Assembly (NCBI GenBank): GCA_000990145.1
Contig: LBSW01000028.1
Coordinates: 1 to 12,211, forward strand
Source: Parcubacteria group bacterium GW2011_GWB1_37_13
Lineage (GTDB): Bacteria > Patescibacteriota > Minisyncoccia > Phycocordibacterales > UBA9973
DNA length: 12,211 nt
Reading direction: 5' to 3'
A program made the translations under genes and the position numbers. Each line of letters starts with the position of its first letter. Position 1 is the first letter of the stretch. Below the pieces are notes generated by a model. That model searched no databases and was not told the DNA's origin. It saw nothing but the letters and a program-made list of their open reading frames with translations. Below are positions 1 to 12,211 of the stretch, piece by piece.

Positions 1-1
1 G

Positions 2-232
2 CAATATCACAAAAACAGATCAGAATTTTGGCGGATTCTTTCTGGTCATCCGATTGTAACAATAGGAGAAAAAGAAATGAAAGCATTGCCCGGCGACGAA
101 TTCACAATCGCAAAGGAAGAATTACATCGCATTCGCGCCGAAGACGGTGCTACGCAATTTTTAGAAATTTCTTTTGGCAAATTTGATGAAAATGACATTA
201 TAAGACTAGAAGATAAATATGGTCGCGCTTAA
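2..232 (+). CDS. Cupin-type mannose-6-phosphate isomerase, C-terminal part (5' end outside window)
   Basis: An open frame enters from the left edge and ends at TAA 230-232, giving about 76 residues. It reads QYHKNRSEFWRILSG, then a GDEF strand, an LHRIRAEDG turn, FLEISFGKFDENDII and ends RLEDKYGR-A. That is the pattern of the small cupin mannose-6-phosphate isomerases, and of the isomerase half of bifunctional GDP-mannose pyrophosphorylases; the QYH and HRI histidines would be metal ligands. The family interconverts fructose-6-phosphate and mannose-6-phosphate in the cytoplasm. Its last four codons overlap the start of the following GH130 gene at 219, so the two are probably translated from one mRNA. 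Linking it to mannoside metabolism fits the GH130 neighbours, but that is inference. With only the C-terminus visible, I cannot tell a stand-alone isomerase from a bifunctional enzyme. Confidence 0.8.
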   Translation, partial: QYHKNRSEFWRILSGHPIVTIGEKEMKALPGDEFTIAKEELHRIRAEDGATQFLEISFGKFDENDIIRLEDKYGRA

Positions 233-1388
233 AAAGCTCCGACGCCCGAAGGGCTCGAGTTCCCGATCTAAAGCATCGGGAAAAAAAATAATAAAAAAGA
301 AAGTTTTAAGAAAGAAGACGGTAAAAAAAACCACCAAAAAAGTTTCCGTTCTTAATCTTAAAAGATCAAAAAAAAATCCCATTATTGAACCGAATAGCAA
401 TATGCATTGGGAGTCAAAAGCGACATTTAATCCCACCGCTTTTTTTCACGATGGGAAGGTGCATATTATTTATCGGGCCATTGGAGATAATGATATTTCA
501 GTATTAGGATATGCAAGAAGCGATGATGGTTACAATATTAATAAAGGATTAAAAGAAATAGCCTATTATAATAAAGATAGACCGGTAATTAAAAAAACAA
601 CAATGCCAAGAATTATTATATATAGTTCTGGTGGCGGCTGGGGCGGAGGATGTGAAGATCCGCGCATTACGCTTTTAAATGGGCAGGTATATATGATATA
701 CACATCCTTTGATGGGTGGGGATCCGTGCGAATGGCTTTGACATCCATCAGTCTTGCGGATTTTATATCCAGGCGTTGGCACAATTGGAGGGAACCGGTG
801 TTAATTTCTCCTCCTGGAGAAATACACAAAAATTGGGCGCTTTTCCCGGGTAAAATATCTGGACCCGCCTCTGAAGGGAAAGGAAAGTACGCGATTCTTC
901 ATAGTATTTCTCCCCGCATAATGATAGATTATTTTGACAGTTTAGATGAACTTGACGGAGATAATTATATACACAGTATCCATCAAGGCAGCCCTCTTTG
1001 GGAATCCAGGGATAAACTTACACGGGGTGTTGGACCTGCGCCAATAAAAACAAAATATGGCTGGCTGGTTTTATATCATAAAATGGAAAAACACGATTCT
1101 CACAGATATAAATTATGGGCAATGATTTTAGATTTAAAAGATCCAGCTAAAATTCTTTTTAATTCAAGCCAGCCGATTCTAGAACCGGATGAATGGTATG
1201 AAAATGAGGGATACAAAGGAGGAGTGGTTTATTCCTGCGGAGCAATTGTTAAAGGCGGGGAATTATTTGTGTATTATGGCGGCGCGGATAAAGTTTCTTG
1301 CGTTGCGACAGCTAATTTGGATAAATTCTTGAAAGAACTTGTGCATTCTAATAAATCAGTATTGGAAAGCAGAAAAATTAAAGAGTAA
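219..1388 (+). CDS. GH130-family glycosidase/phosphorylase-like protein with lysine-rich N-terminal tail
   Basis: 389 residues. From about residue 47 the protein is a five-bladed propeller of the GH130 type (COG2152): KRSKKNPIIEP opening, FNPTAF, IIYRAIG, GCEDPRI at 144-149, HKNWALFP at 203-210, GWLVLYHK at 281-288 and YYGGAD at 352-357. Family members cleave beta-mannosides, usually by phosphorolysis giving mannose-1-phosphate; the Asp of the EDPR motif is regarded as the proton donor, and the Arg and His residues near YRA and YH as phosphate ligands. The exact substrate cannot be read from sequence. Residues 1-42 form a tail very rich in Lys and Arg, unlike the family. No ATG, GTG or TTG lies in frame between 219 and 402, so the tail belongs to the protein if 219 is the start. 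A glycine-rich loop (SSGGGWGGG) precedes the EDPR motif. The start overlaps the upstream isomerase by 14 bases. Confidence 0.85.
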   Translation: MVALKKLRRPKGSSSRSKASGKKIIKKKVLRKKTVKKTTKKVSVLNLKRSKKNPIIEPNSNMHWESKATFNPTAFFHDGKVHIIYRAIGDNDISVLGYARSDDGYNINKGLKEIAYYNKDRPVIKKTTMPRIIIYSSGGGWGGGCEDPRITLLNGQVYMIYTSFDGWGSVRMALTSISLADFISRRWHNWREPVLISPPGEIHKNWALFPGKISGPASEGKGKYAILHSISPRIMIDYFDSLDELDGDNYIHSIHQGSPLWESRDKLTRGVGPAPIKTKYGWLVLYHKMEKHDSHRYKLWAMILDLKDPAKILFNSSQPILEPDEWYENEGYKGGVVYSCGAIVKGGELFVYYGGADKVSCVATANLDKFLKELVHSNKSVLESRKIKE

Positions 1389-1392
1389 TTTT

Positions 1393-3348
1393 ATGTACGT
1401 CGTAAAAAGATCTCATCATAATCCAATTCTTCTTCCCGATAAAGACCATTACTGGGAGGCCTTTGCGACTTTCAATATGAGCGTCGTAAAAGCGGAAAGA
1501 ATGTTTTATGGCGTTTATCGCGCTATTTCTGCGATAGATAGATTGCGTACGTCGCAACAACTTTCAATAATAGGCATTGGCAAAAGCAAAGATGGCATAC
1601 ACTTCGAAGATCGCGCTCCGTTTATCACGCCTTTGGAAGAATGGGAAAAATATGGATGCGAAGATCCGCGCATAACTTATTTTGAGGGACAGTATTATAT
1701 ATTTTACACAGCGCTTTCTAAGTATCCATTTGAAGCCAACGGGATTAAAGTCGCTCTGGCTATTTCAAAAGATTTAAAAAAAATTAGAGAACGGCATTTA
1801 ATAACTCCATTTAACGCAAAGGCGATGACGCTTTTCGGAGAGCGCGTAAACGGCAAAATCACAGTGATTCTTTCAGTGAATACAGATATGCCTCCTGCTA
1901 AAATTGCTATAGCGCAGTTTGATAAAATAGAAGAACTATGGGACTCCAATTTTTGGGAAAAATGGTATAAAGATGTGGACAAGCATACTATTGATCTAAA
2001 AAAATCCCCCTACGACCACATTGAAGTCGGTGCTCCGCCCATTAAAACAAAAACAGGTTACCTTCTTGTATATTCTCACATCCAAAATTATTTTCCCTCT
2101 CCGCTTAATTTAGATCGCATATTCGGGATTGAGGCGATAATTCTGGATTTAAATAATCCACTCAAAGTTCTTGGGCGTACGCGCGGTCCCTTGCTTGCTC
2201 CTCGAGAAGCATATGAACTTTTAGGCTATGTTCCAAATGTAATTTTTCCAACCGGCGCAATTATAAAAAAAACTGCCGGCCAATTGGCAGGCGGGGATAA
2301 GCTTTTTATATATTACGGAGCGGCCGATATGACAGGTTGTGTCGCCTCTGTAAATTTGAACGATCTTATCGGAACTATGCTGAAAAAAGAAAATTCATGG
2401 TGGTGTTTCAAGCGCAGCTATAAAAATCCGATCATCACGCCTAATAAAAAACATTTTTGGGAATCTAAAGCAACCTTCAATCCGGCGGCGATTAGAATAC
2501 GAAACACAACGCACATATTATATAGAGCGTTTTCCGATGACAATATTTCTTGCATTGGATACGCATCAACTAAAGACGGCATTAACATTGACGAGCGGCT
2601 GCCAGAGCCCATTTATTTTCCAAGGGAAGATTTTGAATCAAAAAAAATTACCGGAGGAAATTCAGGATGCGAAGACCCGCGTCTGACAAAAATCGGTAAA
2701 AATATTTATATGTGCTATACCGCATTTGACGGCATTGGTCCGCCACGAGTCGCGATTACTTCCATAAAAGAGGGAGATTTTTTAAAGAAAAAATGGAAAT
2801 GGACAAAACCTATTTTAATCACTCCGGCTGGCCTAGATGACAAAGATACTTGCATCTTTCCTGAAAAAATTAAAGGCCAATATTTTTTCTTGCATCGCGT
2901 GGGGAATGAGATATGCGGAGATTATTTAAAGTCGCTGAATTTTGAAATAAATACTCTCAAAAGATGCATCAGGATTATAGGACCTAGAATAAATAGCTGG
3001 GATAGTTTAAAGGTGGGCATCTCCGCTCCTCCTTTGAAAACAAAAAACGGATGGCTACTTCTTTATCACGGCGTTTCAAAAAGCCATAATACCTACCGAA
3101 TTGGCGCAGTTTTGCTTGATCTAAATGATCCGGCAATAGTGCTTTCGCGCACCACTGACCATATATTTGAACCAGAGGAACCGTATGAAAAAGCCGGGAT
3201 AGTTAATAATGTCGTTTTTCCGTGCGGAATGATTCTCCAAGACGGTCTTTTATATATCTATTACGGCGGAGCGGATACGGTAATTGGGGTCGCAACAATA
3301 AAACTCGATGTTGTTTTAAAAGCTCTTACGAGGAACATTAAGAAATAA
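1393..3348 (+). CDS. Tandem GH130 fusion protein (two GH130 domains)
   Basis: 651 residues from ATG 1393, four bases after the previous stop. An in-frame ATG at 1339 is also open, but it lies in the upstream gene and adds residues that do not look like GH130. Domain 1 (about 1-332) and domain 2 (about 335-651) each start with a KRS..NPI motif and contain YRA, GCEDPR (88-93 and 425-430), APP-K-TK, a LDL-NP strand and YYG-AD. Domain 2 closely resembles the preceding gene (WESKATFNP, DDNIS-IGYA, GWLLLYHG). Domain 1 is more divergent: where the others have YH after the GWLLL strand it has YSHI, and where domain 2 has DKDTCIFPEK it has NAKAMTLFGE. Domain 1 may therefore bind a different ligand or have lost phosphorolysis; that is inference. 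Residues 295-300 (AGQLAG) are an extra loop encoded by a near-perfect palindrome. No signal peptide is visible, so it is probably cytoplasmic. Confidence 0.85.
   Translation: MYVVKRSHHNPILLPDKDHYWEAFATFNMSVVKAERMFYGVYRAISAIDRLRTSQQLSIIGIGKSKDGIHFEDRAPFITPLEEWEKYGCEDPRITYFEGQYYIFYTALSKYPFEANGIKVALAISKDLKKIRERHLITPFNAKAMTLFGERVNGKITVILSVNTDMPPAKIAIAQFDKIEELWDSNFWEKWYKDVDKHTIDLKKSPYDHIEVGAPPIKTKTGYLLVYSHIQNYFPSPLNLDRIFGIEAIILDLNNPLKVLGRTRGPLLAPREAYELLGYVPNVIFPTGAIIKKTAGQLAGGDKLFIYYGAADMTGCVASVNLNDLIGTMLKKENSWWCFKRSYKNPIITPNKKHFWESKATFNPAAIRIRNTTHILYRAFSDDNISCIGYASTKDGINIDERLPEPIYFPREDFESKKITGGNSGCEDPRLTKIGKNIYMCYTAFDGIGPPRVAITSIKEGDFLKKKWKWTKPILITPAGLDDKDTCIFPEKIKGQYFFLHRVGNEICGDYLKSLNFEINTLKRCIRIIGPRINSWDSLKVGISAPPLKTKNGWLLLYHGVSKSHNTYRIGAVLLDLNDPAIVLSRTTDHIFEPEEPYEKAGIVNNVVFPCGMILQDGLLYIYYGGADTVIGVATIKLDVVLKALTRNIKK
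2275..2292. repeat. 18-bp near-perfect palindrome inside GH130 fusion
   Basis: GCC-G-GCCAATTGGC-A-GGC: nine-base arms with a single mismatched pair. It falls exactly on codon boundaries and encodes residues 295-300 (AGQLAG) of the fusion protein. This loop is absent from the other two GH130 domains at the same place, just before the YYG-AD strand. Confidence 0.6.
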
Positions 3349-3367
3349 AAATATATTTATCTTTTAT

Positions 3368-3604
3368 TTATTTCCCAGAAGACATTTTCTCTAATTCTTC
3401 CTTTCCCCACAGAAGCATAAGTTTATTACCAATGACCGCTCTAAAATTTCCTCTGGAAACATTATCTGAATGATTAACACCTTCAGTGTATTTTTCAAGT
3501 TGAGCTTGCGTAATTAAACCTTTTGTGTAGTTATTAACATTATACCACATAACAGCATCTTCTTCAGTAAGGTCATCAGGATTTACATCAGTAAGTTCTA
3601 TCAT
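3368..3604 (-). CDS. Unknown small protein, probably the C-terminal part of a split gene
   Basis: 78 residues, no family recognised. The sequence starts MIELTDVNPDDLTEEDAVMW and contains several acidic stretches, a WYNVNNYTKG segment and ends WGKEELEKMSSGK; no membrane segment, signal peptide or cysteine pair. It begins two bases after the stop of the small ORF at 3607-3729 and has no ribosome binding site. Adding one A to the A9 tract at 3614-3622 (minus-strand sense) would join the two ORFs into one protein of about 120 residues running ERKKKYIDMIELTD, so this is more likely a fragment than an independent gene. It converges on the GH130 fusion with only 19 bases between them. Coding status is plausible but not proven. 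Confidence 0.5.
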   Translation of the reverse strand: MIELTDVNPDDLTEEDAVMWYNVNNYTKGLITQAQLEKYTEGVNHSDNVSRGNFRAVIGNKLMLLWGKEELEKMSSGK

Positions 3605-3606
3605 AT

Positions 3607-3729
3607 CTATATATTTTTTTTTCGTTCAGCAATGAGCATTGTCATATCGGCGCGAAAAGTCGCCATATCAAGTTTATTTTCAGTTTCTTTTTTAGGGGTT
3701 GGATTAGGTTGTTTATCTATCTGTGACAT
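3607..3729 (-). CDS. Small unknown ORF, probable N-terminal part of the same split gene
   Basis: 40 residues from ATG 3729 to TAG 3607-3609, starting MSQIDKQPNPTPKKETENK and ending MLIAERKKNI. It is hydrophilic, with a Pro/Lys-rich start followed by a likely helix. A TATAAT hexamer (minus strand, 3742-3737) lies seven bases before the ATG, which suggests its own promoter. The ORF ends within a few codons of an A9 tract, two bases before the next ORF, so the two small ORFs are probably pieces of one gene. It is divergent from the hibernation factor gene, with only 30 bases between the two start codons. Confidence 0.45.
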   Translation of the reverse strand: MSQIDKQPNPTPKKETENKLDMATFRADMTMLIAERKKNI

Positions 3730-3753
3730 AGATTTAATTATATATGATATAAT
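3723..3753 (+). promoter_or_regulatory. Promoter of hpf, leaderless type
   Basis: Extended -10 TGA-TATAAT at 3745-3753, followed by exactly six bases and ATG 3760. A -35-like GTGACA is at 3723-3728, a rather long spacing of 19. Transcription would start at or next to the A of the start codon. No Shine-Dalgarno sequence is present. The -35 lies inside the first codons of the divergent small ORF. Confidence 0.65.
3737..3742 (-). promoter_or_regulatory. -10 element of the small minus-strand gene
   Basis: Perfect TATAAT on the minus strand, seven bases before ATG 3729, predicting a leaderless or nearly leaderless transcript. It lacks the upstream TG seen at the five stronger promoters and lies in a very AT-rich stretch, so chance is possible. 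Confidence 0.4.
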
Positions 3754-3759
3754 AAATAT

Positions 3760-4086
3760 ATGCAAATAAATTTATTGGGGAAAAATATTGAGCTAACAGA
3801 AGCCATTAAAGACTATGTTTTAAAAAGAGTTACTAATTTAGAAAGATTGCTTTCTAATATAGAAAAAAGCGGAGGGGAAGTCAAAGTCGCTTTTGAAGTT
3901 GGGAAGAGTACTCATCATCATAAATCCGGCGAAGTTTTTCACGCGGATTGCTTGATTAAAATAAATGGAAAAGAGTTTTATTCAAGCGCCGACAAAGAGG
4001 ACTTATATCAGGCGATAGACGCTATCAAGGACAGTCTTTATAATGAAATAAATAGAAACAAAGACCGCAGTCAGACCCTTACTTAA
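3760..4086 (+). CDS. hpf: Ribosome hibernation promoting factor, short form (HPF/RaiA family)
   Basis: 108 residues covering one complete domain of the HPF/RaiA (YfiA) family: MQINLLGKNIELTEAIKDYV opening, a central strand KVAFEVGK, a His-rich loop (THHHKSGEVF), HADCLIKINGKEFYSS, and the DLYQAIDAIKDSLYNEI helix near the C-terminus. It lacks the C-terminal dimerisation domain of long HPF. The family binds the decoding region of the 30S subunit and silences ribosomes in stationary phase or starvation. The basic surface typical of the family is present (KKR-like patches and the THHHK loop). The start is fixed by the promoter six bases upstream. The next gene follows after five bases, so they probably share a transcript. 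Confidence 0.9.
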   Translation: MQINLLGKNIELTEAIKDYVLKRVTNLERLLSNIEKSGGEVKVAFEVGKSTHHHKSGEVFHADCLIKINGKEFYSSADKEDLYQAIDAIKDSLYNEINRNKDRSQTLT

Positions 4087-4091
4087 CTAAA

Positions 4092-4331
4092 GTGGAATAT
4101 AAATCACAAAATATGATATGTCAGAATTGTAAAGATAACTTCACGATAGGGTCAGAGGATTTTAATTTTTATGAAAAAATAAAAGTTCCTCCACCGACTT
4201 TTTGCCCAGAGTGTCAACGCACAAAACAGAAAAATGCGAAGTTAAATTTGAAACTTCTTATGCTCCGGACAGGCCGGAAATTGTTTATTGCGAAAAGTGC
4301 TATCAGCAGGAAGTATATTGATAGATATTGA
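4092..4331 (+). pseudogene. Zinc-ribbon protein, frameshifted
   Basis: The frame from GTG 4092 (or ATG 4113) encodes MICQNCKDNFTIGSEDFNFY, then KVPPPTFCPEC, a zinc ribbon with two CxxC knuckles of a type I associate with CPR genomes. After CPECQRTKQK the frame turns into residues that look meaningless and stops at 4331. In the -1 frame, from TGC 4235, the sequence reads KCEVKFETSYAPDRP, then EIVYCEKCYQQEVY and TGA at 4319-4321, a recognisable second zinc-ribbon end. One extra A in the A5 run at 4230-4234 would restore a single protein of 76 residues. Even then the second ribbon would have only one of its first two cysteines. Role unknown; such ribbons often bind nucleic acid or protein. Disrupted gene, slippage and sequence error are all possible. 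Confidence 0.6.
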
Positions 4332-4333
4332 TA
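4315..4333 (+). repeat. 9-bp direct repeat beside the palindrome
   Basis: ATATTGATA occurs twice, at 4315-4323 and 4325-4333, separated by one G. The second copy forms the outer end of the 38-bp palindrome that follows. It could be a trace of insertion or a pair of protein-binding sites; chance is possible in AT-rich sequence. Confidence 0.5.
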
Positions 4334-4362
4334 AATTACGCATATGCGTAATTTATCAATAT
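4325..4362. repeat. 38-bp perfect palindrome between convergent genes
   Basis: Two 19-base arms, starting ATATTGATAAATTACG and meeting at GCATATGC, are exactly complementary with no spacer. The palindrome lies between the zinc-ribbon gene (plus) and the end of fmt (minus). It could act as a two-way terminator for convergent transcripts, though no long T run follows on either strand, or as a binding site for a dimeric protein. Its position at the end of the lepB-hisS-def-fmt operon favours a 3'-end role. Confidence 0.75.
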
Positions 4363-4374
4363 TAAAAATTAAAA

Positions 4375-5241
4375 TTATGGGAATTTTTTAAGGAATTCCT
4401 CATACTTTATTTCTTTCCTTCCTTCCGGTAAAACTTTTTTGATTACGAATTGATTATTTTCCAAAATAGCATCAGTAATAATAATTCTTTTGCCGTTTTT
4501 AAAGAAGAAAGTTCTAGGCCAAGAGGCATAAGCTCTGAATTTGTTGTAATTTTTGACAGCACCGTCATTTAAATCTATAAGTCCATCCCCTTTTTTGATT
4601 TTTTTGCAGTAAGTTGCCTCTTGTTCATTTTGGGAGGTTGCCTTGATTTTATCAGCAATAAATTCAAGCAGAATTTTTACTAAAAGTTCTGTTCCAATTT
4701 TTATCAAACGTTTGCGCAAATCCGGCGTTTTTTCATCCGGCAGGATTACAATTTTTTCTTGGGCAATTATTCCCCCGGAATCCATTTCATATTCCATTTT
4801 TTGGATGCTGACCCCTGTTTCTATATCTCCATTTAATATGGCGGATTCAACAGGAGAAGCTCCACGGTATTTTGGAAGCAAAGAATAATGAATGTTTATG
4901 GAACCAAATTTTGGAGAATTTATAACATTTTCCGGAATTATTTTTCCGTAAGCGACCACAATGGATAAATCCCACTTGGTAGTCGGACTACCACTTGGTA
5001 GTCCGACTACCAAGTTAAAGTTTTTATCTAATTTTTCCGGTTTTAAACAACATATATTATTTTTCTCTGCAAAAATAGCTACGGGCGAGGCTTGCATTTG
5101 CAAGCCTCGCCCCCTTTTTGCATCTGGCGAAGTAACAATAAGTGATGGAATGTAGCCGTTTTGTTTTAGAATTTCTAAAGTCTCACTGGCCACGTCCGGT
5201 GTGCCAAAAAATGCAAAATTTATTTTTTGATTATTTTTCAT
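4375..5241 (-). CDS. fmt: Methionyl-tRNA formyltransferase
   Basis: 288 residues, a little shorter than typical Fmt. It transfers a formyl group from 10-formyl-tetrahydrofolate to initiator Met-tRNA in the cytoplasm. The N-terminal Rossmann-like domain begins INFAFFGTPDVASETLEIL; the catalytic segment is INIHYSLLPKYRGASP (Asn116, His118) and the third catalytic residue is Asp154 in MEYEMDSGGIIAQ. The C-terminal tRNA-binding domain follows, with YCKKIKKGDGLIDL and AYASWPRTFF. Two palindromes lie in its coding sequence: one encodes residues 44-53 within the conserved GRG-x5-SPV segment, the other residues 76-90 in the variable stretch before IVVAYG. Both keep the frame and the catalytic residues are intact, so the gene looks functional. 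The start is one base after the def stop; it is the last gene of the operon. Confidence 0.95.
   Translation of the reverse strand: MKNNQKINFAFFGTPDVASETLEILKQNGYIPSLIVTSPDAKRGRGLQMQASPVAIFAEKNNICCLKPEKLDKNFNLVVGLPSGSPTTKWDLSIVVAYGKIIPENVINSPKFGSINIHYSLLPKYRGASPVESAILNGDIETGVSIQKMEYEMDSGGIIAQEKIVILPDEKTPDLRKRLIKIGTELLVKILLEFIADKIKATSQNEQEATYCKKIKKGDGLIDLNDGAVKNYNKFRAYASWPRTFFFKNGKRIIITDAILENNQFVIKKVLPEGRKEIKYEEFLKKFP
4974..5015. repeat. 42-bp palindromic element within fmt
   Basis: Left arm 4974-4993 (ACTTGGTAGTCGGACTACCA) and right arm 4996-5015 are perfect 20-base complements with a CT spacer. Each arm is itself nearly palindromic around GTAGTC-G-GACTAC, so the element is nested and can fold as one long or two short hairpins. 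It is 42 bases, 14 codons, and keeps the fmt frame, encoding LVVGLPSGSPTTK. The opposite strand encodes a nearly identical peptide. Confidence 0.85.
5083..5112. repeat. 30-bp GC-rich palindromic element within fmt
   Basis: Left arm 5083-5096 (GGGCGAGGCTTGCA) and right arm 5099-5112 are perfect 14-base complements with a TT spacer. The element sits exactly on codons 44-53 of fmt and is much more GC-rich than its surroundings. It encodes GRGLQMQASP, at the place of the family's GRG-x5-SPV segment, without changing the expected length. Confidence 0.85.
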
Positions 5242-5242
5242 A

Positions 5243-5812
5243 TTACTTTTTTGGAATCTCCTTTCTTATATCTTTAGCATGATCAATAAAAAGTATCCCA
5301 TTCAAATGGTCTGTTTCATGTTGAAGAATTTGCGCCAATAATCCAGATGCGCCTCTGGTAAATTTTTTACCATTTTCATCATAGGCGGCAACAATAGCCT
5401 TTTTCGATCTAAAAGTTCTACCATAAAGAGGGCGAACAGAAAGACAACCCTCCGGCATCCATTCTTTTTCACGAGAAAGTTTAGAAATTTTTGGATTTAT
5501 AAAAACCAAGTCTTTTGCGACAGGATTTTCTTGCGCTGGATTGTCATCTACGAGTGTTTTTGTAGCATCTATTTTTAAACTGTCGCTTTGCGCAGGAAAT
5601 CCCGCCTTCAAAATTTTTCCAGATACCGTAAAAATGCGCAAAGAGTATCCTATTTGCGGCGCAGCTATGGCTACACCGTCATCTTGGCTTTGAAGCGTTT
5701 CAGACATCTCCTTCAAAATTCTTTTTATTTTTACCGTCTTAATATCTGATACAGGAATTTCTTGGGCTATTTGGCGTAAAATTTTTTCTTTTTTCTGAAG
5801 AATTTTTTTCAT
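5243..5812 (-). CDS. def: Peptide deformylase
   Basis: 189 residues. It removes the formyl group from the N-terminal Met of new proteins, using a metal ion bound by one Cys and two His. All three family motifs are present: DDGVAIAAPQIG (motif 1), EGCLSV (motif 2, Cys ligand) and QHETDHLNG (motif 3, both His ligands and the catalytic Glu). Between RIFTVSG and LVFINPKI there is an insertion of about 30 residues, roughly 67-97, rich in Ala, Asp and Gln, which is absent from E. coli Def; it should form a surface loop. The ATG directly follows the hisS stop codon with no gap, and fmt starts one base after its stop, so the formylation and deformylation genes are translated from one mRNA. No ribosome binding site is visible. 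Confidence 0.95.
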   Translation of the reverse strand: MKKILQKKEKILRQIAQEIPVSDIKTVKIKRILKEMSETLQSQDDGVAIAAPQIGYSLRIFTVSGKILKAGFPAQSDSLKIDATKTLVDDNPAQENPVAKDLVFINPKISKLSREKEWMPEGCLSVRPLYGRTFRSKKAIVAAYDENGKKFTRGASGLLAQILQHETDHLNGILFIDHAKDIRKEIPKK

Positions 5813-7120
5813 CTATTTAAGCTCTTTCAGGTATTCCAGAAGTTTATTTAATTTTACAGTATCTTGAGATCTATTTGACATATCTCGCACTATGACGGAA
5901 TTATCAAGCGCCTCTTTAACTCCAAAAATAAGGCTATAAGGTATGGCTAGTTTCTCTGCTATAGCCAATTGCGAACCCAAACTATCTTTAGAAAGCGATT
6001 GGGTTATAGGAATATGAGCCTTGCGCAGTGTTTCAATTATATTTAAACTTTTTAATTTTGCTTCAGAGCCAAGCTGGATAAAATAAATTTTTGGTTTCTT
6101 TAATATGCGGGGCGCGAGCTTTTTATACCAAGATGATGAGACTATTCTATCCACTCCTATGGAAATTCCTACAGCGGGTACATCTTTTTTGCTTCCTATT
6201 TGGCGAGCCAGATAATCATAACGTCCGCCGCCGGCGAGCGCTAAAGGCGAACCATCCTCCGCGCCGGCTTGTTCTATAATTTCAAAAACAGTGCGAGTAT
6301 AATAGGAAAGGCCACGCACTAAACTTTTATTTAAATTATATTGGATGTTCATCTCTTCCAGATATTCCAATACTTCTTTAAAATGTTTCTTGCAAGAAGG
6401 ACACAAGAAAGAAACCGAATCAGGAGCATTTTTGTTTATTTCTTTTGTTTTCTCTTCTTTTGAGTCCAGTATGCGAAGCGGATTTATCCTTAAGCGTTCC
6501 CGATCTACGCTTGGAAGTTCGCTTATATGTTTTTTATAATAACTTGTAAGTTCTCTGATGTATGCGCCTCGACACTCTTTATCGCCGATAGAATTTATGT
6601 CAATAGAAAGATTGTTCGCTCCAGCTTCCTCCAATATGCTTATGCAAGTTTTTATCACTATCGCATCCATAATACTTTTTTCGCTTCCAAGCGAATCAAA
6701 ATCAAATTGCCAAAATTGCCTATAACGTCCGCGCTGAGGTTTGTCATGTCTGAAGACTGGACCGGAATGATAAAGCATTACTGGTTGAGGCATATTTTGC
6801 ATTCCGTGTTGAATATAAGCGCGTATTAGCGGCGCGGTATGCTCTGGTCGAAGTGCCAAACGATCTCCGCCCTTAGTTTTTAGCGTATACATTTCTTTTT
6901 CTATGATGTCTGTTCCTTCACCTATGCCCAAAGTAAAAATCTCTTCATTTTCCAGCATCGGAGTTTCGATTGGCTTAAAACCGTAATATACCGCAATTTC
7001 TTGCGCTTTTTCAAAAAATCCTTGGAAAGAATAATATTCTTCATTCATCAGGTCTCTCATTCCCTTAGGGGAAGAAACGCTTAGCGTTTTACTTTTACTT
7101 GTGTGTGCTGTTTTTTTCAT
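5813..7120 (-). CDS. hisS: Histidyl-tRNA synthetase
   Basis: 435 residues, class II aminoacyl-tRNA synthetase charging tRNA-His in the cytoplasm. Visible landmarks: SPKGMRDLM near the start, motif 2 around GPVFRHDKPQRGRYRQFWQFD, the histidine-binding signature LVRGLSYYTRTVFEI, GGGRYDYL, motif 3 at AVGISIGVDRI, and a C-terminal anticodon-binding domain from about residue 340 (PKIYFIQLG to the end). In the usual signature RGLDYY the Asp is here Ser (RGLSYY), a change in the histidine A motif that deserves a check. The insertion region has a CPSC pair (FLCPSCKKHF). The start is 18 bases after the lepB stop, without a clear ribosome binding site or separate promoter, so it is probably co-transcribed with lepB. 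Confidence 0.95.
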   Translation of the reverse strand: MKKTAHTSKSKTLSVSSPKGMRDLMNEEYYSFQGFFEKAQEIAVYYGFKPIETPMLENEEIFTLGIGEGTDIIEKEMYTLKTKGGDRLALRPEHTAPLIRAYIQHGMQNMPQPVMLYHSGPVFRHDKPQRGRYRQFWQFDFDSLGSEKSIMDAIVIKTCISILEEAGANNLSIDINSIGDKECRGAYIRELTSYYKKHISELPSVDRERLRINPLRILDSKEEKTKEINKNAPDSVSFLCPSCKKHFKEVLEYLEEMNIQYNLNKSLVRGLSYYTRTVFEIIEQAGAEDGSPLALAGGGRYDYLARQIGSKKDVPAVGISIGVDRIVSSSWYKKLAPRILKKPKIYFIQLGSEAKLKSLNIIETLRKAHIPITQSLSKDSLGSQLAIAEKLAIPYSLIFGVKEALDNSVIVRDMSNRSQDTVKLNKLLEYLKELK

Positions 7121-7138
7121 CCCGTTAAAATTTTATAT

Positions 7139-7711
7139 TTATTGCTTATAATTGCCCGGCAATACGCTTATTTTATTTATTGGCAACAGACGCAGGAACG
7201 CTCTTCCAATGATAAATTCTTTTTTTACCGCTCCCCAAATTCTTGAATCAGAACTGCCGCTTCTATTGTCGCCCATTACGAAATATTCATCGCTCTTTAA
7301 TTCAAAATGCTTGTCATCATTTGATAAATTTTTTACATAAGGCTCATAAAGCTCAAATCCATTTTTGCGCTCTTCGTTTGTTACGGTCACAACACTGCCT
7401 TTTATTTCTATTGTTTCATTCGGAAGGCCTATTATTCTTTTGATAAAAAATTTTGTTTGATTATATGGATATCTAAAAATAACAACATCGTCTCTTTTTG
7501 GATTATTCAATTTGTAGGATATTTTATCTACTATTAAATAATTTGCGTCTTCAAAAGTAGGGACCATGGAACTTCCTGAAACAATAAATGGTTCTGCTAT
7601 GAAAACGCGAATTGGAACGACAATAATCAACGCCATTACGGCAAAACGCACCAATTCCCAGAATGATTGCTTTTTTGTTTTTACCGGTTCTGTTGGTTTT
7701 ATTGGTTCCAT
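7139..7711 (-). CDS. lepB: Signal peptidase I
   Basis: 190 residues from ATG 7711. The frame is open back to a TTG at 7753, but that start would place the promoter inside the gene; the ATG lies exactly six bases after an extended -10. The protein has a short cytoplasmic N-terminus (EPIKPTEPVKTKK), one membrane segment at about residues 18-40, the box B motif SGSSMVPT with catalytic Ser48, the general-base Lys91 in FIKRIIGLPNE, and FVMGDNRSGSSDSR (box D/E). It cleaves signal peptides from exported proteins on the outer face of the membrane. It is shorter than E. coli LepB and has a single visible transmembrane anchor, as in Gram-positive forms. It heads the lepB-hisS-def-fmt operon and is divergent from pth. 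Confidence 0.95.
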   Translation of the reverse strand: MEPIKPTEPVKTKKQSFWELVRFAVMALIIVVPIRVFIAEPFIVSGSSMVPTFEDANYLIVDKISYKLNNPKRDDVVIFRYPYNQTKFFIKRIIGLPNETIEIKGSVVTVTNEERKNGFELYEPYVKNLSNDDKHFELKSDEYFVMGDNRSGSSDSRIWGAVKKEFIIGRAFLRLLPINKISVLPGNYKQ

Positions 7712-7717
7712 TTTCAC

Positions 7718-7726
7718 AGTATAACA
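7718..7726 (-). promoter_or_regulatory. Promoter of the lepB-hisS-def-fmt operon, leaderless type
   Basis: Minus strand TGT-TATACT, then six bases (GTGAAA), then ATG 7711. The same GTGAAA spacer precedes dnaE. No good -35 is visible at normal spacing, as expected for an extended -10 promoter. It supports ATG 7711 as the lepB start. Confidence 0.65.
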
Positions 7727-7736
7727 CAAAAAATCC

Positions 7737-7767
7737 TTGACATTATATTGCAATTATATGTTATTAT
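7737..7767 (+). promoter_or_regulatory. Promoter of pth, leaderless type
   Basis: Perfect -35 TTGACA at 7737-7742 and extended -10 TGT-TATTAT at 7759-7767, spacing 19 between hexamers. Six bases (GTAGGA) separate the -10 from ATG 7774. The AGGA is too close to the start codon to work as a Shine-Dalgarno sequence. Confidence 0.7.
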
Positions 7768-7773
7768 GTAGGA

Positions 7774-8316
7774 ATGAAAATTGTTGTTGGCTTGGGGAAT
7801 CCTGGAAATGAATACAAAAATACCAGACATAATACTGGGCGGATTATAATTGGCATACTTGAGAAGAAATTCGGAGACAAAACAGGAAAGAATAAAATTA
7901 AATTTCTTGCGCCAGATACTTTTATGAATAATTCAGGTAAAGCTGTAGCTTCTTTAATAAAAACAAAAAAAGATTTAAAGAATCTTGTTGTCGTATATGA
8001 TGATATTGATTTACCGTTAGGGAAAATAAAAATTTCTTTTAATCGATCTTCGGGTGGACACAATGGCTTAAATTCTGTTATCAAAGCTCTAAAAAGCGAG
8101 GAATTTTTGCGTATTAGAATTGGTATTTCTCCTGCTACTCCAAAAGGCGTAATAAAAAAGCCGAAAGGGGAGAAAGCGGTGATAAATTTTATTTTAGGAG
8201 AGTTCAAAAAGCCCGAACTAGAAATCCTGAAAAAACTTTCTAAAAAAGTCGTAGAAATAGTAGAAACTATTTTCACCGGAAGCAAAGAAAAAGCGATGAG
8301 TTTGTATAACAATTAG
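7774..8316 (+). CDS. pth: Peptidyl-tRNA hydrolase
   Basis: 180 residues, bacterial Pth family. It releases peptides from peptidyl-tRNA that has dropped off the ribosome, recycling tRNA. Conserved residues are all visible: GLGNPG with Asn9, TRHNTG with the catalytic His19, TFMNNSG (Asn at 52-53), VYDDIDLPLG with Asp76, and GGHNGLNS with Asn97. The segment between TRHNTG and TFMNNSG is about a dozen residues shorter than in E. coli Pth, typical of reduced genomes. The start is fixed by the promoter. It is divergent from lepB across 62 bases and converges on the small gene at 8322 with a gap of five bases. The long open frame on the opposite strand is a shadow of this gene. Confidence 0.95.
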   Translation: MKIVVGLGNPGNEYKNTRHNTGRIIIGILEKKFGDKTGKNKIKFLAPDTFMNNSGKAVASLIKTKKDLKNLVVVYDDIDLPLGKIKISFNRSSGGHNGLNSVIKALKSEEFLRIRIGISPATPKGVIKKPKGEKAVINFILGEFKKPELEILKKLSKKVVEIVETIFTGSKEKAMSLYNN

Positions 8317-8321
8317 TGATT

Positions 8322-8519
8322 TTATCTTCTATATAAACTTGTCGTTTCTTCATGGTCTTCTTCCGCTTGTTTACGCACCAGCTCAGCCTCTTTTTCATCT
8401 AAGGGTAAATTCTTGCTTCTTTTTTTGCGGATACTTTCTACTAATTCTTCATCCGTTCTATAATCTAACTTATATTTTATAGATGGATGTTTGTTGCTAC
8501 TTTCTATTCTTGTTTTCAT
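8322..8519 (-). CDS. Small hypothetical protein
   Basis: 65 residues, no family recognised. It is highly charged: MKTRIESSNKHPSIKYKLDY, then TDEELVESIRKKRSKNLPLD, and an acidic helix-like end EKEAELVRKQAEEDHEETT. No hydrophobic segment or cysteine. It starts 29 bases after the end of the dnaE C-terminal fragment in the same direction, so it may be the last gene of the dnaE transcript. A TATTTT hexamer six bases before its ATG could be a weak promoter, but the stretch is so AT-rich that this carries little weight. Its coding status rests on a clean ATG-to-TAA frame between two known genes and ordinary composition. Confidence 0.55.
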   Translation of the reverse strand: MKTRIESSNKHPSIKYKLDYRTDEELVESIRKKRSKNLPLDEKEAELVRKQAEEDHEETTSLYRR

Positions 8520-8548
8520 TTTTGAAAAATAAAATTATTAATAAAAAT

Positions 8549-8830
8549 TTAAATTTCCTTTACTGCCTCTATTATAACGCTTTTTTCGCCATTACGCAAG
8601 GATACTTTTCCGGAAAACGCGATGCATTTTTCTGGGACTAATATATCAACAGATTCTTTGAATATAGAAGGAAAAGCAACAGCTTCTATAGAGCCAGTTA
8701 AATCCGATATTTTCAAAAATGCCATTCTTTCATTATTTTTTGTAATTACCTGTCTCGAAGTTTCTATTATTCCAGCGATAGTTATTTGTATGCCATTTCC
8801 TATTTCTTCTTTTATTTTTTTAATATTCAC
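8549..8830 (-). CDS. dnaE: DNA polymerase III alpha, C-terminal OB-fold part, in a shifted frame
   Basis: From GTG 8830 the frame gives 93 residues: NIKKIKEEIGNGIQITIAG, then IIETSRQVITKNNERMAFLK, ISDLTGSIEAVAFPSIF and a strand-rich end to VKEI. This is the OB-fold nucleic-acid-binding domain found near the C-terminus of bacterial DnaE. It is +1 relative to the polymerase frame, which stops at TAA 8820-8822 after WEKELLGLCEY. The frame is open up to ATG 8890, but residues before 8830 are an out-of-frame reading of the polymerase gene. The conserved linker that normally follows ELLGL (YVSGHPLD and about ten more residues) is missing. The GTG overlaps the polymerase stop by 11 bases, so coupled translation of a separate OB subunit is conceivable. 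Confidence 0.75.
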   Translation of the reverse strand: MNIKKIKEEIGNGIQITIAGIIETSRQVITKNNERMAFLKISDLTGSIEAVAFPSIFKESVDILVPEKCIAFSGKVSLRNGEKSVIIEAVKEI

Positions 8831-11597
8831 AAAGTCCCAATAATTCCTTTTCCCAAAGCAGTTTTTCAGCTTGTGTTGCAGTTGGCGCATCTTGAAGTTT
8901 GAAAGACAACGTGTCGGTTTTTAAGCCGCCAAAAAGGGAAACTTGATTTTCATTTTGTTTATTTTTTTCGTGATTATATTCCAGCATTCTTTCCAAATTT
9001 GCCAGCATTACTCCTCGGTCGCCCCAATCGTCCATACTCCCGGATTTGATCAATGCTTCCATAGATTTTTTGTTTAAATTTTTATGTTTAACTCTGTTTA
9101 AAAAGTCAGCAATTGATTTGAATTTACCATTTAATTTTCGTTCCCTTATTATACTATCGGAAATATCTGTACCCAGATTTTTAATCGTGTAGAATCCAAA
9201 TCTAATCTTTTCACTTTTATTTTTAGTGTTTATAGTTGTGTCCTGTTCTGCAGGCAGACAAGTAAACACCCCAAAACTTTCATTAATATTTGGTGGCAGA
9301 ATGGGAATATTCATATTTTTACATTCATTGATAATAACTGCAATCTTCTCCACATCGCCGGATTCGGCAGTAAGTATAGAAGCCATATATTCCACGGGAT
9401 AATGGGCTTTCATATAAGCTGTTTGGTAAGCGACTTTTCCATAAGATGCGGCGTGCGCTTTATTGAATCCGTAAGCTTGAAAAGGTTCAAAAAGTTTCCA
9501 AAGTTTCTCAGCGAATTCTAAAGTTTGTCCATTTGAAATAATGCCTTTAGTAAATTTTTCTCTCTGCGCCGCCATTTCTTTTGGAATTTTTTTCCCGACA
9601 GCTTTGCGAAATTTGTCTGCCTCTTCCCAGTTGTATCCGGCAAGTTCGATAGCGGAAAACAAAAGATCGTCTTGGTAAACAATCAGCCCATAAGATTCGC
9701 CCAAGAATTTTTTCATCCGGGGATCAAGGTATTTTACTAATTGCGGATTATGCTTGCGCTTTATGTATTCCGGTATTGATTCCATTGGTCCGGGACGATA
9801 CAAGGCGACCATAGCGTTAATGTCGTGTATAGAAGTAGGTTTTAATTCTTTCAAATATCTGGTCATACCGGAACCATTTAATTGAAATAGTCCTTCCGTT
9901 TGGCCATTTGCTAAAAGTTCAAAAGTTTTTTTATCATCGAGCGGAATATTCTCTATGTCTATGTTTATATTGTAAAATTTTTTAACCAAATATACGCTAT
10001 CAGCCAGGATGGATAAGTTTCTGATTCCAAGGAAATCAAATTTCAGAAGCCCTGCTTCCTCAATATTGTACATATCATATTGAGTGATTATTTTATTTTC
10101 TCCTTTCGGGTCATATTGAAGCGGAACATATTCCACGAGCGGCAGGGGAGAAATAACAACTCCAGCAGCGTGTACGGAAATATGTCTCACACATCCCTCT
10201 AGCTTTTTTGCCAGATCTATTATTTTTTTTGTGTCCCTTTCGTTTTTATACGCGTCTTTTAATTCCCCAACTATTTCCATCGCGTGATCTATTGTCATTG
10301 GTATGCCTTGCGAACCCATCGGAATCATTTTTGAAAGCCTGTCACCAATAATGTAAGGGTAACCGAGCGCTCGAGCAACATCTTTGATTGCGCCCCGCGC
10401 CATCATTGTTCCGAAAGTTCCAATTTGAGCCACTTTATCTTCACCATATTTATTTTTGACATACTCAATCATTTCGTCTCGTCTATTGTCGGCAAAGTCC
10501 ATATCGATATCAGGCGGCGATGGACGAAAAGGATTTAAAAATCTTTCAAAGGGTAATTTATATTCTATTGGGTTAACATTTGTAATGCCAAGCAGATATG
10601 TCGCCATTGATCCTGCAACCGAGCCTCTAATTGTTGTTAAAATTCCATTTTCTTTCGCATGACTCAAAAGGTCGCCGACCACGAGAAAGTATGGAGCATA
10701 TCCTTTGTCTTTAATTATTTTTAATTCATACTCTACGCGTCTTTTTATCTCTGATGTTTCTTTTAAATTTAATCTATCCAGTCCTTTATATGTAAGTTCG
10801 CGAAGTTTTTCATCATAATTTTTTTCGTCTTTAACTTTAAAGTCGGGAAAAACCCATTTGCCGAGTTTAAGTTCCAAATTGCACATATCGGCAATTTTTT
10901 TTGTATTTTCAATCGCTTCTGGAATATCTTTAAACACCTCCAGCGCTTTTTTTGTGTCAATGAAAGAAAAATCATCATTAGAGAACTCAAATTTTGTCCC
11001 ATCTTTTACATCACCTTGAGTATTTATCTGCAATAAAGTGTGGTGGGCGTCGTGGTCATCACTACAAGGATAATGTGAGTCTTGTGTAGCGACTATTTCA
11101 ACTTCATGTTTTTTTGCTAGTTTTATCAGCGATGCGCGCACAGCCGTATCGTTTTCAACTGACGGATGGCGCTGAATTTCTATAAAATAATTTTCTTTGC
11201 CGAAAATATCCTGATATTCGCGTACGAGCTCATCGGCTTTTGCTGTGTCACCTTTCATTACTGTTTGCGATAATTCTCCACCTAAACAGCCTGATAGAGC
11301 GATGATACCTTTAGAATATTTTCGAAGTATTTCTTTATCCATTCTCGGTTTGTAATAGTAACCCTCAAGGTTGGCGATAGTGACTAATTTAATTAAATTT
11401 TTATATCCCTCTAAATTTTTAGCAAGCAAGGTTAGATGGTAATAACGTTTTGTGCCTCCAGCTTCTGTCGTTCTATCTGTGCGATTTCCGGCGGTCATGT
11501 ATGCTTCTACTCCAATAATAGGTTTAATACCTTCTTTTTTAGCAAGTTTATAAAATTCAATCGCGCCGTACATATTGCCATGATCGGTGATGGCCAT
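8820..11597 (-). CDS. dnaE: DNA polymerase III alpha subunit, main part
   Basis: 925 codons, starting MAITDHGNMYGAIEFYKLAK within the PHP domain and ending ELLGLCEY. It is the replicative polymerase catalytic subunit. The PHP domain continues through GVEAYM, ALSGCLGGEL and ATQDSHYPCSDDHDAHH; the palm has RGSVAGSMATYLLGIT, PPDIDMDFADNRRDEM with two catalytic Asp (near 10500-10515) and LLKFDFLGIRNLSIL with the third (near 10030). Then come the thumb/fingers (FQLNGSGMTRYLKELKP, ALYRPGPMESIPEYIKRKH, FNKAHAASYG) and the helix-hairpin-helix region (FYTIKNLGTDISDSIIRERK). An insertion near 9240-9270 (CLPAEQD) is unusual. The true N-terminus lies upstream in another frame (11703), and the OB domain lies downstream in another. 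All catalytic residues are intact across an uninterrupted frame, arguing against an old pseudogene. Confidence 0.9.
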   Translation of the reverse strand: MAITDHGNMYGAIEFYKLAKKEGIKPIIGVEAYMTAGNRTDRTTEAGGTKRYYHLTLLAKNLEGYKNLIKLVTIANLEGYYYKPRMDKEILRKYSKGIIALSGCLGGELSQTVMKGDTAKADELVREYQDIFGKENYFIEIQRHPSVENDTAVRASLIKLAKKHEVEIVATQDSHYPCSDDHDAHHTLLQINTQGDVKDGTKFEFSNDDFSFIDTKKALEVFKDIPEAIENTKKIADMCNLELKLGKWVFPDFKVKDEKNYDEKLRELTYKGLDRLNLKETSEIKRRVEYELKIIKDKGYAPYFLVVGDLLSHAKENGILTTIRGSVAGSMATYLLGITNVNPIEYKLPFERFLNPFRPSPPDIDMDFADNRRDEMIEYVKNKYGEDKVAQIGTFGTMMARGAIKDVARALGYPYIIGDRLSKMIPMGSQGIPMTIDHAMEIVGELKDAYKNERDTKKIIDLAKKLEGCVRHISVHAAGVVISPLPLVEYVPLQYDPKGENKIITQYDMYNIEEAGLLKFDFLGIRNLSILADSVYLVKKFYNINIDIENIPLDDKKTFELLANGQTEGLFQLNGSGMTRYLKELKPTSIHDINAMVALYRPGPMESIPEYIKRKHNPQLVKYLDPRMKKFLGESYGLIVYQDDLLFSAIELAGYNWEEADKFRKAVGKKIPKEMAAQREKFTKGIISNGQTLEFAEKLWKLFEPFQAYGFNKAHAASYGKVAYQTAYMKAHYPVEYMASILTAESGDVEKIAVIINECKNMNIPILPPNINESFGVFTCLPAEQDTTINTKNKSEKIRFGFYTIKNLGTDISDSIIRERKLNGKFKSIADFLNRVKHKNLNKKSMEALIKSGSMDDWGDRGVMLANLERMLEYNHEKNKQNENQVSLFGGLKTDTLSFKLQDAPTATQAEKLLWEKELLGLCEY

Positions 11598-11703
11598 CGC
11601 TTTTTGCTAATGCCACTAAATCTTCAAGCTTTGAAAGCCCATCGAGTAGAGAATAATGACTGTGCGTGTGCAGATGTATAAATTGGGTATCTTGCGCTGG
11701 CAT
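11557..11703 (-). CDS. dnaE: DNA polymerase III alpha, N-terminal PHP start in a shifted frame
   Basis: ATG 11703 opens a frame of 48 codons reading MPAQDTQFIHLHTHSHYSLL and DGLSKLEDLVALAK, the expected start of bacterial DnaE with the metal-binding HTH of the PHP domain. After Lys34 the frame becomes nonsense (SDGHHRSW) and stops at 11557, while the polymerase frame takes over at +1 with KAMAITDHG. The switch is in an A5 run at 11605-11601. Four or five residues usual at this point (K-x-G-M after ALAK) are also missing, suggesting a deletion of 11 or 14 bases rather than one extra base. The promoter six bases upstream confirms this ATG as the original start. The polymerase frame has a stop just before the A5 run, so it cannot be extended upstream in its own frame. 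Confidence 0.8.
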   Translation of the reverse strand: MPAQDTQFIHLHTHSHYSLLDGLSKLEDLVALAKSDGHHRSWQYVRRD

Positions 11704-11709
11704 TTTCAC

Positions 11710-11718
11710 ATAATAACA
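11710..11718 (-). promoter_or_regulatory. Promoter of dnaE, leaderless type
   Basis: Minus strand TGT-TATTAT, then GTGAAA, then ATG 11703. Spacer and geometry are the same as at lepB. No convincing -35 is present. Confidence 0.65.
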
Positions 11719-11747
11719 TATTTTGCTTTGTTGTTTTATTTGTTTTT

Positions 11748-11756
11748 TGGTACAAT
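11748..11756 (+). promoter_or_regulatory. Promoter of the small membrane protein gene, leaderless type
   Basis: Extended -10 TGG-TACAAT, six bases, ATG 11763. A weak -35-like TTGTTG is at 11728-11733 with spacing 17. It is divergent from the dnaE promoter within 59 bases. Confidence 0.6.
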
Positions 11757-11762
11757 ATAGAT

Positions 11763-12074
11763 ATGCAAAAAAGATATTGGTTAAGAAGTGGTATTATGTT
11801 GGGTGCTATATTTTCTGTGTTGGGTTACTTTCTTGTTGTGTCTAATGTCTCAGTACCCAATCATCTCAGTTACCTAAAAGATTGGTTTCTGGGAATACCT
11901 TTTTTCTTAAGTATGCTAACTGGTCTAGGACACATTGATATCATGAATACAGGTAAGATTGATTTCCTTGCCCAGATATCTTTCTTGTCGATTACTTTTT
12001 TGCTGTATTTTATTATCGGTGCTTTTCTAGGTTGGCTCTACGGAAAAATTAAAAATAGGAATAAAAGTATTTAA
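11763..12074 (+). CDS. Small membrane protein of unknown function
   Basis: 103 residues, no family recognised. Three hydrophobic stretches are visible: about 10-30 (SGIMLGAIFSVLGYFLVV), 41-57 (WFLGIPFFLSMLTGLG, less certain) and 70-92 (ISFLSITFLLYFIIGAFLGW). Positive residues lie at both ends (MQKRYWLR and KIKNRNKSI), so both termini are probably cytoplasmic if two segments cross the membrane. There is no typical lipoprotein Cys. The start is supported by an extended -10 six bases upstream. It is divergent from dnaE, and a further gene starts 38 bases after its stop, apparently with its own -10. Confidence 0.7.
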   Translation: MQKRYWLRSGIMLGAIFSVLGYFLVVSNVSVPNHLSYLKDWFLGIPFFLSMLTGLGHIDIMNTGKIDFLAQISFLSITFLLYFIIGAFLGWLYGKIKNRNKSI

Positions 12075-12099
12075 TGTTGCGCCTGTCGTACTCATGGTG

Positions 12100-12105
12100 T
12101 ATTAT
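12100..12105 (+). promoter_or_regulatory. -10 element of the last gene
   Basis: TATTAT, then seven bases, then ATG 12113. TG directly adjoins the hexamer without the usual intervening base, so it fits the extended -10 pattern less well than the other five. Confidence 0.4.
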
Positions 12106-12112
12106 GTTTAGT

Positions 12113-12211
12113 ATGGATGCTTTAATGAAAAAAATAAATATTGGGACACTTAATCGAAAGCCAGTCGTTATTATTCCTACAGATGCTTGGGATAAAATGC
12201 GTGCTCGTTTT
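12113..12211 (+). CDS. Partial gene, unknown (possibly antitoxin-like), 3' end outside window
   Basis: 33 codons to the window edge: MDALMKKINIGTLNRKPVVI, then IPTDAWDKMRARF. An alternative start is ATG 12125 (MKKINIG). The short strand-turn-strand with PVVIIP followed by a helix resembles the N-terminus of Phd/YefM-like antitoxins, but this is a weak impression from few residues. If so, a toxin gene should lie just beyond the window. Confidence 0.4.
   Translation, partial: MDALMKKINIGTLNRKPVVIIPTDAWDKMRARF

Follow-up and report, generated by a model that had tools for sequence, protein, structure and literature searches.

How does a ribosome find the start of a gene when a promoter-like box ends six bases before its ATG? 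The question is raised by a 12,211-nucleotide stretch of DNA from Parcubacteria group bacterium GW2011_GWB1_37_13 (contig LBSW01000028.1, positions 1 to 12,211), hereafter the window, in which the initial annotation described five sites where TGn-TAnnnT is followed by exactly six bases and an ATG. The window corresponds to contig C28 in an assembly of 443 kb (46 contigs, 78% completeness, 36% G+C), labelled G000; the other G-numbers used below denote comparison genomes. G000 is Nomurabacteria-like and falls within the Patescibacteria (CPR), its lineage being one of tiny bacteria not yet cultured. All five sites, at hpf, lepB, pth, dnaE and the gene starting at 11763, match that description letter for letter, on both strands. 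Our best reading, to which we give a probability of about 0.87, is that transcripts beginning with AUG, together with reinitiation, have probably replaced initiation guided by the Shine–Dalgarno (SD) sequence. The five sites, followed by two probable additional starts with a 7-base spacer and no TGn, are:

3745-3762, plus strand: putative hpf promoter and start; TGA, -10 TATAAT at 3748-3753, six bases, ATG at 3760-3762.
7726-7709, minus strand: putative lepB promoter and start; TGT, -10 TATACT at 7723-7718, six bases, ATG at 7711-7709.
7759-7776, plus strand: putative pth promoter and start; TGT, -10 TATTAT at 7762-7767, six bases, ATG at 7774-7776.
11718-11701, minus strand: putative dnaE promoter and start; TGT, -10 TATTAT at 11715-11710, six bases, ATG at 11703-11701.
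11748-11765, plus strand: putative promoter and start of the 11763 gene; TGG, -10 TACAAT at 11751-11756, six bases, ATG.
3742-3727, minus strand: probable additional start; TATAAT at 3742-3737, TAAATCT, ATG at 3729-3727.
12100-12115, plus strand: probable additional start; TATTAT at 12100-12105, GTTTAGT, ATG at 12113-12115.

Four of the five start codons are credible. Pfam matches start at residue 3 of both hpf (Ribosomal_S30AE) and pth (Pept_tRNA_hydro) and at residue 18 of lepB (Peptidase_S26), and the dnaE ATG begins an N-terminus (..FIHLHTHSHYSLLDG..) common to relatives. The 11763 gene (103 aa, divergent to dnaE) has no Pfam match, and the support for its start is the open reading frame (ORF) itself. 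The pth gene is divergent to lepB, which heads the series lepB-hisS-def-fmt. Among the additional starts, the one at 3729 is divergent to hpf, with the two -10 regions almost in contact and a promoter-like site ending at 3737 also predicted, and the ORF from 12113 extends past the end of the window.

We write the pattern TGnTAnnnT as TGNTANNNT and the number of bases between box and ATG as k. In the window, TGNTANNNT-N6-ATG occurs seven times, whereas 200 dinucleotide shuffles average 0.55 matches and peak at 4, none reaching 7. Of the seven, the matches at 4329-4346 and 4341-4358 represent opposite strands of a single palindrome and mark no gene start. When the TG is dropped, the pattern falls to near background, with 14 matches for 10.5 expected and 32 of 200 shuffles reaching 14. 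The palindrome is a perfect one of 19+19 bp at 4325-4362 (ATATTGATAAATTACGCAT/ATGCGTAATTTATCAATAT); similar TGRTAAWTT..GCATATG palindromes are found elsewhere in G000 (C3:6511-6540, C4:4243-4272, C6:3184-3201 and C19:13289-13318), and the family perhaps consists of bidirectional terminators.

In the genome-wide scan that the initial annotation had proposed, the -10 is clearly enriched at a fixed 6-7 bases before the ATG. The G000 genome holds 80 matches to the pattern for 10 to the reversed pattern. Genes were called with a simple codon-score script on 31 of the 46 contigs (313 kb), giving 296 genes, 277 of them with the 5' end inside. Before the in-frame ATGs of these 277 genes (952 candidates, at most four per gene), TGNTANNNT is found 35 times at k=6 and 12 times at k=7, and at most nine times at every other spacer from k=0 to 25; before ATGs deep within genes (n=1137) it occurs 0 times at k=6 and three times at k=7. 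GTG and TTG were tried as start codons of boxed genes and rejected, with no peak (3 at k=6 among 1006 candidates). Counted per gene, TGNTANNNT lies at 6/7 bases near the start in 43/265 genes of G000 (2 at the control spacers 13/14), 25/185 in G382 of the same genus (control 2), 11/167 in G397 of the same order (control 2), 5/173 in G331 of the same class (control 0), 6/101 in G062 of another family (control 1) and 0/116 in E. coli (control 0). A -10-like box at fixed spacing, as in the leaderless genes termed TA-led, thus peaks at k=6-7 in G000, G382 and G397 and has no peak in E. coli.

The same holds for a strict box, defined by at least 5 of the 6 TATAAT letters. It is present at k=6 in 29 of the 168 ATG lead genes of G000 (background 1.4 per position, Poisson 8e-28), in 22/105 lead genes of G382 and 10/85 of G397, and in 0/72 of E. 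coli. Over k=6-11, 66 of the 168 G000 lead genes carry it, compared with 18, 18, 20, 12, 10 and 9 in six control windows of equal width, an excess amounting to some 27-34% of lead genes, with weaker boxes left out of the count. In divergent genes, the surest lead genes (n=62), TGNTANNNT stands at 6/7 in 18 (control 0); with the looser TAnn[AC]T, the number rises to 27 (control 4). Boxed lead genes are therefore a large minority, and possibly a majority. The proposal that the lead gene of most transcription units is leaderless stands as far as a sizeable share is boxed; the word "most" is not supported by the strict boxes.

We then asked what kind of element the box is, using lead starts from G000 and G382, of which 73 are boxed (selected by the box only) and 204 unboxed. 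TG is present at -15/-14 in 39/73 boxed starts, compared with 10/204 unboxed starts and 1/13 boxed ATGs inside genes. TTG is found at -35 in 10/73 boxed starts, while 20 other offsets give between 0 and 6 (mean 1.8). The position of this weak signal sets the -35 hexamer 17 bp from the -10. By its sequence, the box is a predicted sigma-70-type extended -10 promoter, with TGn present and the -35 present but weak. The usual distance from the -10 to the first transcribed base (+1) is about seven bases; a six-base spacer would therefore place +1 on the A of the ATG. That messenger RNA (mRNA) would begin at or next to this A, as first suggested for the five window sites, follows naturally from the spacing, the TGn, the weak -35 and the conserved distance.

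Conservation in relatives was examined for pth and dnaE, using the best 80 of 571 confirmed DnaE relatives, nearly all from Candidatus (Ca.) Nomurabacteria and other Parcubacteria records. For pth, found in 29 of these dnaE loci, TAnnnT lies at exactly 6 bases in 26 relatives, and at 5-9 in 27 compared with 6 at 20-24. For dnaE, taking the nearest ATG in 75 of the 80 loci, TAnnnT lies at 5-9 in 60 and at 20-24 in 12, TGnTAnnnT at 5-9 in 42 and at 20-24 in 1, and an SD tetramer is present in 1.

These distances bear on the rival explanation that survives best, namely that the promoters are real and that many transcripts start 1-5 bases ahead of the ATG, making the mRNAs near-leaderless and not strictly leaderless. 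In its favor, the strict box is in excess in G000 not only at k=6 but also at k=7 (12/168 lead genes) and k=8-11 (33/168), and in the 75 dnaE loci a spacing of 7 is as common as 6 (24 and 23, respectively). The sharpest peak is nevertheless at 6, and so is the spacing of pth in nearly all relatives. We consider this explanation unlikely.

Some observations concern the dnaE loci and the start at 3729 themselves. In the window, dnaE (8549-11703, minus strand) is split in three frames, with the N-terminus from 11703, a main ORF at 11597-8820 and a C-terminal piece at 8890-8549; at each break, relatives have a few more codons, which indicates either true decay or an assembly error. At 3368-3729 (minus strand), a 41-aa ORF from 3729 and a 78-aa ORF from 3604 resemble one gene broken at an A run, a further sign of assembly indels or decay. 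One dnaE locus, L073 (JAMPXW010000003.1), is titled Burkholderiales; its DnaE shares 80% identity with that of the window, and the 16S tail it carries is of the Nomurabacteria type (G490), so that the record is probably mislabelled.

The second part of the argument comes from the 3' tail of the 16S ribosomal RNA (rRNA), where the anti-SD sequence CCUCC (CCTCC in the gene) is normally sought after helix 45. In G000, a pattern of helix 45 with its tail matches at C43:7618-7668 (minus strand); the tail reads GGAATAATTCAATTTG, and the following 300 bases hold no CCTCC. An Rfam 16S search of G000 gave no match, because the contig holds only the end of the gene. The 16S search in relatives found the gene in 18/31 genomes; 16 loci reach the 3' part, and CCTCC is present in 0/15 of those readable past helix 45 (L153 is unreadable there). 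Across the phylum, a helix-45 pattern with a free tail matches 232/379 genomes and the full canonical tail pattern 127/379. Within the family and order, 15/17 genomes match the helix-45 pattern (G000 included) and 0/15 carry CCTCC in this tail. Among 50 named genomes from the 80 DnaE loci, a set overlapping those of the family and order, 38 match and 0/38 carry CCTCC in this tail; they include Nomurabacteria and single representatives of Yonath-, Lloyd-, Taylor-, Zambryski- and Vogelbacteria. CCUCC is thus missing from G000 and from every near relative whose 3' end can be read. Elsewhere in the class, 9/15 genomes match; CCTCC is absent in six (G043, G089, G118, G273, G298 and G348) and kept in three (G075, G281 and G331). 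The tails of the six, which lie in the class and outside the order, look decaying (e.g. GGATCACTTCTTATCT, GGATCATTTCTTTTTT) and may represent steps on the way to losing the anti-SD. Among the matches listed outside the class, most tails keep CCTCC, with variants in G226, G284, G046, G242, G008, G198 and G334.

Leaderless-type promoters extend further than this loss. In the patescibacterial family f33, the pattern is in strong excess over its reversed form (G286, 154 compared with 12; G109, 143 compared with 20), and the anti-SD is kept as GGATTACCTCC in 14/14 genomes examined. Other families have no excess (G099, 28 and 27; G114, 45 and 50; G222, 55 and 55, for the pattern and its reverse). 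Leaderless use would therefore not require anti-SD loss, and putative leaderless promoters are widespread in Patescibacteria, while the anti-SD was probably lost within one class. As a separate observation, f33 (G109, G286 and others) has the strongest leaderless-pattern excess noticed in the phylum table.

Before the genes, SD motifs are missing too. Measured as a tetramer 4-9 bases before the start and compared with control positions, SD motifs are found in 5/265 genes of G000 (control 12), 4/185 of G382 (control 8) and 3/167 of G397 (control 5), all without CCUCC, and in 18/173 of G331 (control 8), 47/101 of the Patescibacterium G062 (control 5) and 48/116 of E. coli (control 4), all with CCUCC. 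Loss of the tail and loss of SD motifs go together. No second SD-type motif was found before the other genes, the SD family occurring 11 times for 20.7 expected at unboxed lead genes. A new pairing partner of the replaced 16S tail was also considered. Pentamers complementary to this tail number 58 for 47.7 expected at boxed starts, 77 for 85.3 at unboxed lead starts and 105 for 73.3 at internal starts, figures that are hard to weigh because both sides of the pairing are AT-rich. As for the factors around the tail, the initiation factor IF3 is kept in 39/41 genomes of the order, G000 among them (37 over cut-off), and bS21 is still recognisable in 33/55 genomes of the class (8 over cut-off). Era is described as a factor binding the anti-SD region (PMC10582724, as far as its available text goes). 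It has no match over cut-off in 55/55 class genomes, those keeping CCUCC included, with weak GTPase matches in all 55; its loss as the cause of anti-SD loss is ruled out, as the match is likewise below cut-off in the genomes that keep CCUCC.

With SD and anti-SD both gone, another signal is needed, and the TA box could itself be an AT-rich ribosome-binding signal and no promoter, much like the A-rich leaders of Bacteroidota. Pentamer enrichment does reveal A-rich sequence just upstream of unboxed lead starts and of internal starts. The box, however, follows sigma-70 grammar, with TGn, a TATAAT consensus and TTG at the 17-bp distance, and it keeps a fixed distance to the ATG, which makes this explanation quite improbable.

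Still less probable is an assembly artefact, or a decayed extra copy of 16S, as the source of the missing anti-SD, with a normal 16S elsewhere. It is true that the G000 contig covers no more than roughly the final 95 bases of 16S, and that G185 and G525 (Vogelbacteria) each have a second match with CCTCC. These second matches have another helix 45 and are placed on separate contigs, a pattern expected of contamination, which is the probable explanation for that of G185; moreover, the altered tail recurs in independent assemblies (15/15 of the same order and 38/38 named genomes, many letter-identical), and the genes, too, lack SD motifs. Finally, chance is hardly credible: TA-rich hexamers precede many ATGs in DNA of this G+C content and TAnnnT-N6-ATG without TG is unenriched in the window, but the excess with TG, the sharp peak at 6-7 bases and for ATG only, its absence before in-gene ATGs and from E. 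coli, and the conservation at pth and dnaE all speak against it.

AUG-first initiation with reinitiation could then work as follows. A sigma-70-type RNA polymerase would recognise the weak TTG -35 and the extended -10 (TGnTATAAT) and would initiate some seven bases past the -10; given the spacing, this position is the A of the start codon. Transcripts would then begin with AUG, or at most a few bases ahead of it. A ribosome without 16S anti-SD would start at this 5'-terminal AUG, presumably by means of formyl-Met-tRNA and IF2. Downstream genes of an operon would most likely be served by ribosomes that have just terminated upstream, or by A-rich unstructured sequence. In the window, such genes are:

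7120-5813, minus strand: hisS; start 18 bases past the preceding stop, no box at 6 bases, no SD.
5812-5243, minus strand: def; start 0 bases past the preceding stop, no box at 6 bases, no SD.
5241-4375, minus strand: fmt; start 1 base past the preceding stop, no box at 6 bases, no SD.

Lying behind lepB, all three are candidates for reinitiation. In G000, 84/203 same-strand neighbours are within 25 bases of each other or overlap, nine of them by four bases. Note that two strong GC-rich hairpins (4974-5015 and 5083-5112) lie within the fmt frame and resemble in-frame insertions of repeat elements. At the other end of the window, 219-3348 (plus strand) holds two genes with three consecutive GH130 (mannooligosaccharide phosphorylase-like) domains.

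Several results weigh against this interpretation. A strict box at k=6-11 is lacking in 102/168 lead genes of G000, and only 34 of the 64 pattern matches in the 31 contigs sit at called starts; 10 of the 64 end in GCATATG and belong to the palindrome family, and the remainder lie elsewhere. The gene calls come from a simple script rather than a trained gene finder. The operon-internal genes hisS, def and fmt lack the pattern, as the initial annotation stated; across the genome, a box precedes 7/84 genes classed as internal (2 at the control spacer). T at -1, considered as a signature of the start site, was discarded as unspecific (45/73 boxed and 135/204 unboxed starts), and it is also frequent in G331, which keeps CCUCC. 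The ungated motif AGGAGN{4,9}ATG, which is not anchored to genes, is 1.40 times as frequent as its reversed control in 17 genomes of the order; the ratio is 1.55 in six class genomes without CCUCC and 1.97 in three with it, and we dropped it as a phylum-wide measure of SD use because it is too noisy.

A wider version, which we hold tentatively and at somewhat less than even odds, would extend the replacement to the order as a whole. SD and anti-SD would have been abandoned together, with CCUCC lost, nearly every transcription unit starting at or within a few bases of its AUG, and internal genes translated only by reinitiation or from unstructured A-rich sequence. Leaderless transcription would have come first, since Patescibacteria with an intact CCUCC commonly have leaderless promoters too, and would have made the anti-SD dispensable, the intermediates being still visible in the class.

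How does this arrangement compare with known ones? In Bacteroidota, the anti-SD of the ribosome is sequestered and initiation is SD-independent; the latter is shared with the present case, whereas the anti-SD is present but covered there and absent from the rRNA gene here. The published comparisons that follow are limited to the available text of each source. Leaderless genes are widespread and not dominant in 953 bacterial genomes, with no mention of Patescibacteria (Zheng et al, 2011; PMC3160421), and are predicted in 21.6% of bacterial species (PMC9581028). The TA-led genes of the former study likewise have a -10-like signal ~10 bp before the start, with TG ahead of it in low-G+C genomes such as Lactococcus; here, by contrast, the SD signal is undetectable and the anti-SD is gone. 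In Deinococcus-Thermus, close to one third of D. radiodurans genes have TANNNT ~6-7 bp ahead of the ORF, and this species also has a GGAG ribosome-binding motif upstream of ORFs (Zhong et al, 2025; PMC12340547). No such motif is found here, and the present box resembles TATAAT, with TGn before it and a weak -35. Bacteria without CCUCC comprise 128 taxids, mainly Bacteroidetes, Mycoplasma and Carsonella (PMC6107228). Closest are the class iv "SD-scarce" organisms of a 2024 study (PMC10783764), with 16S lacking CCUCC and few SD genes, which include one Ca. Campbellbacteria and one Ca. Wolfebacteria genome, as well as Absconditabacteria and Peribacter. These are single genomes, and leaderless transcription is proposed there for Nanoarchaeia and not for these bacteria, whereas here the loss spans a whole order, alongside leaderless promoters. 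The available text of a 2024 review of Patescibacteria makes no mention of promoter or leader, and a literature search, preprints being outside it, found no paper joining leaderless genes and CCUCC loss for Patescibacteria, or describing an order-wide loss. Leaderless genes are thus known, and so is CCUCC loss in single Parcubacteria genomes; what appears to be new is the two joined, and order-wide.

If the reading is true, the textbook rule for gene starts would fail across an order, beyond single degenerate symbionts, and gene-start annotation would change for a large group of uncultured genomes. The mature 16S tail would be expected to end AAUAAUUCAA.. without CCUCC. The natural series from CCUCC kept, through decaying, to gone would make the order of events testable. 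For genetic tools in Patescibacteria, the reading would predict workable promoters and leaders, to which an SD leader should add no help.

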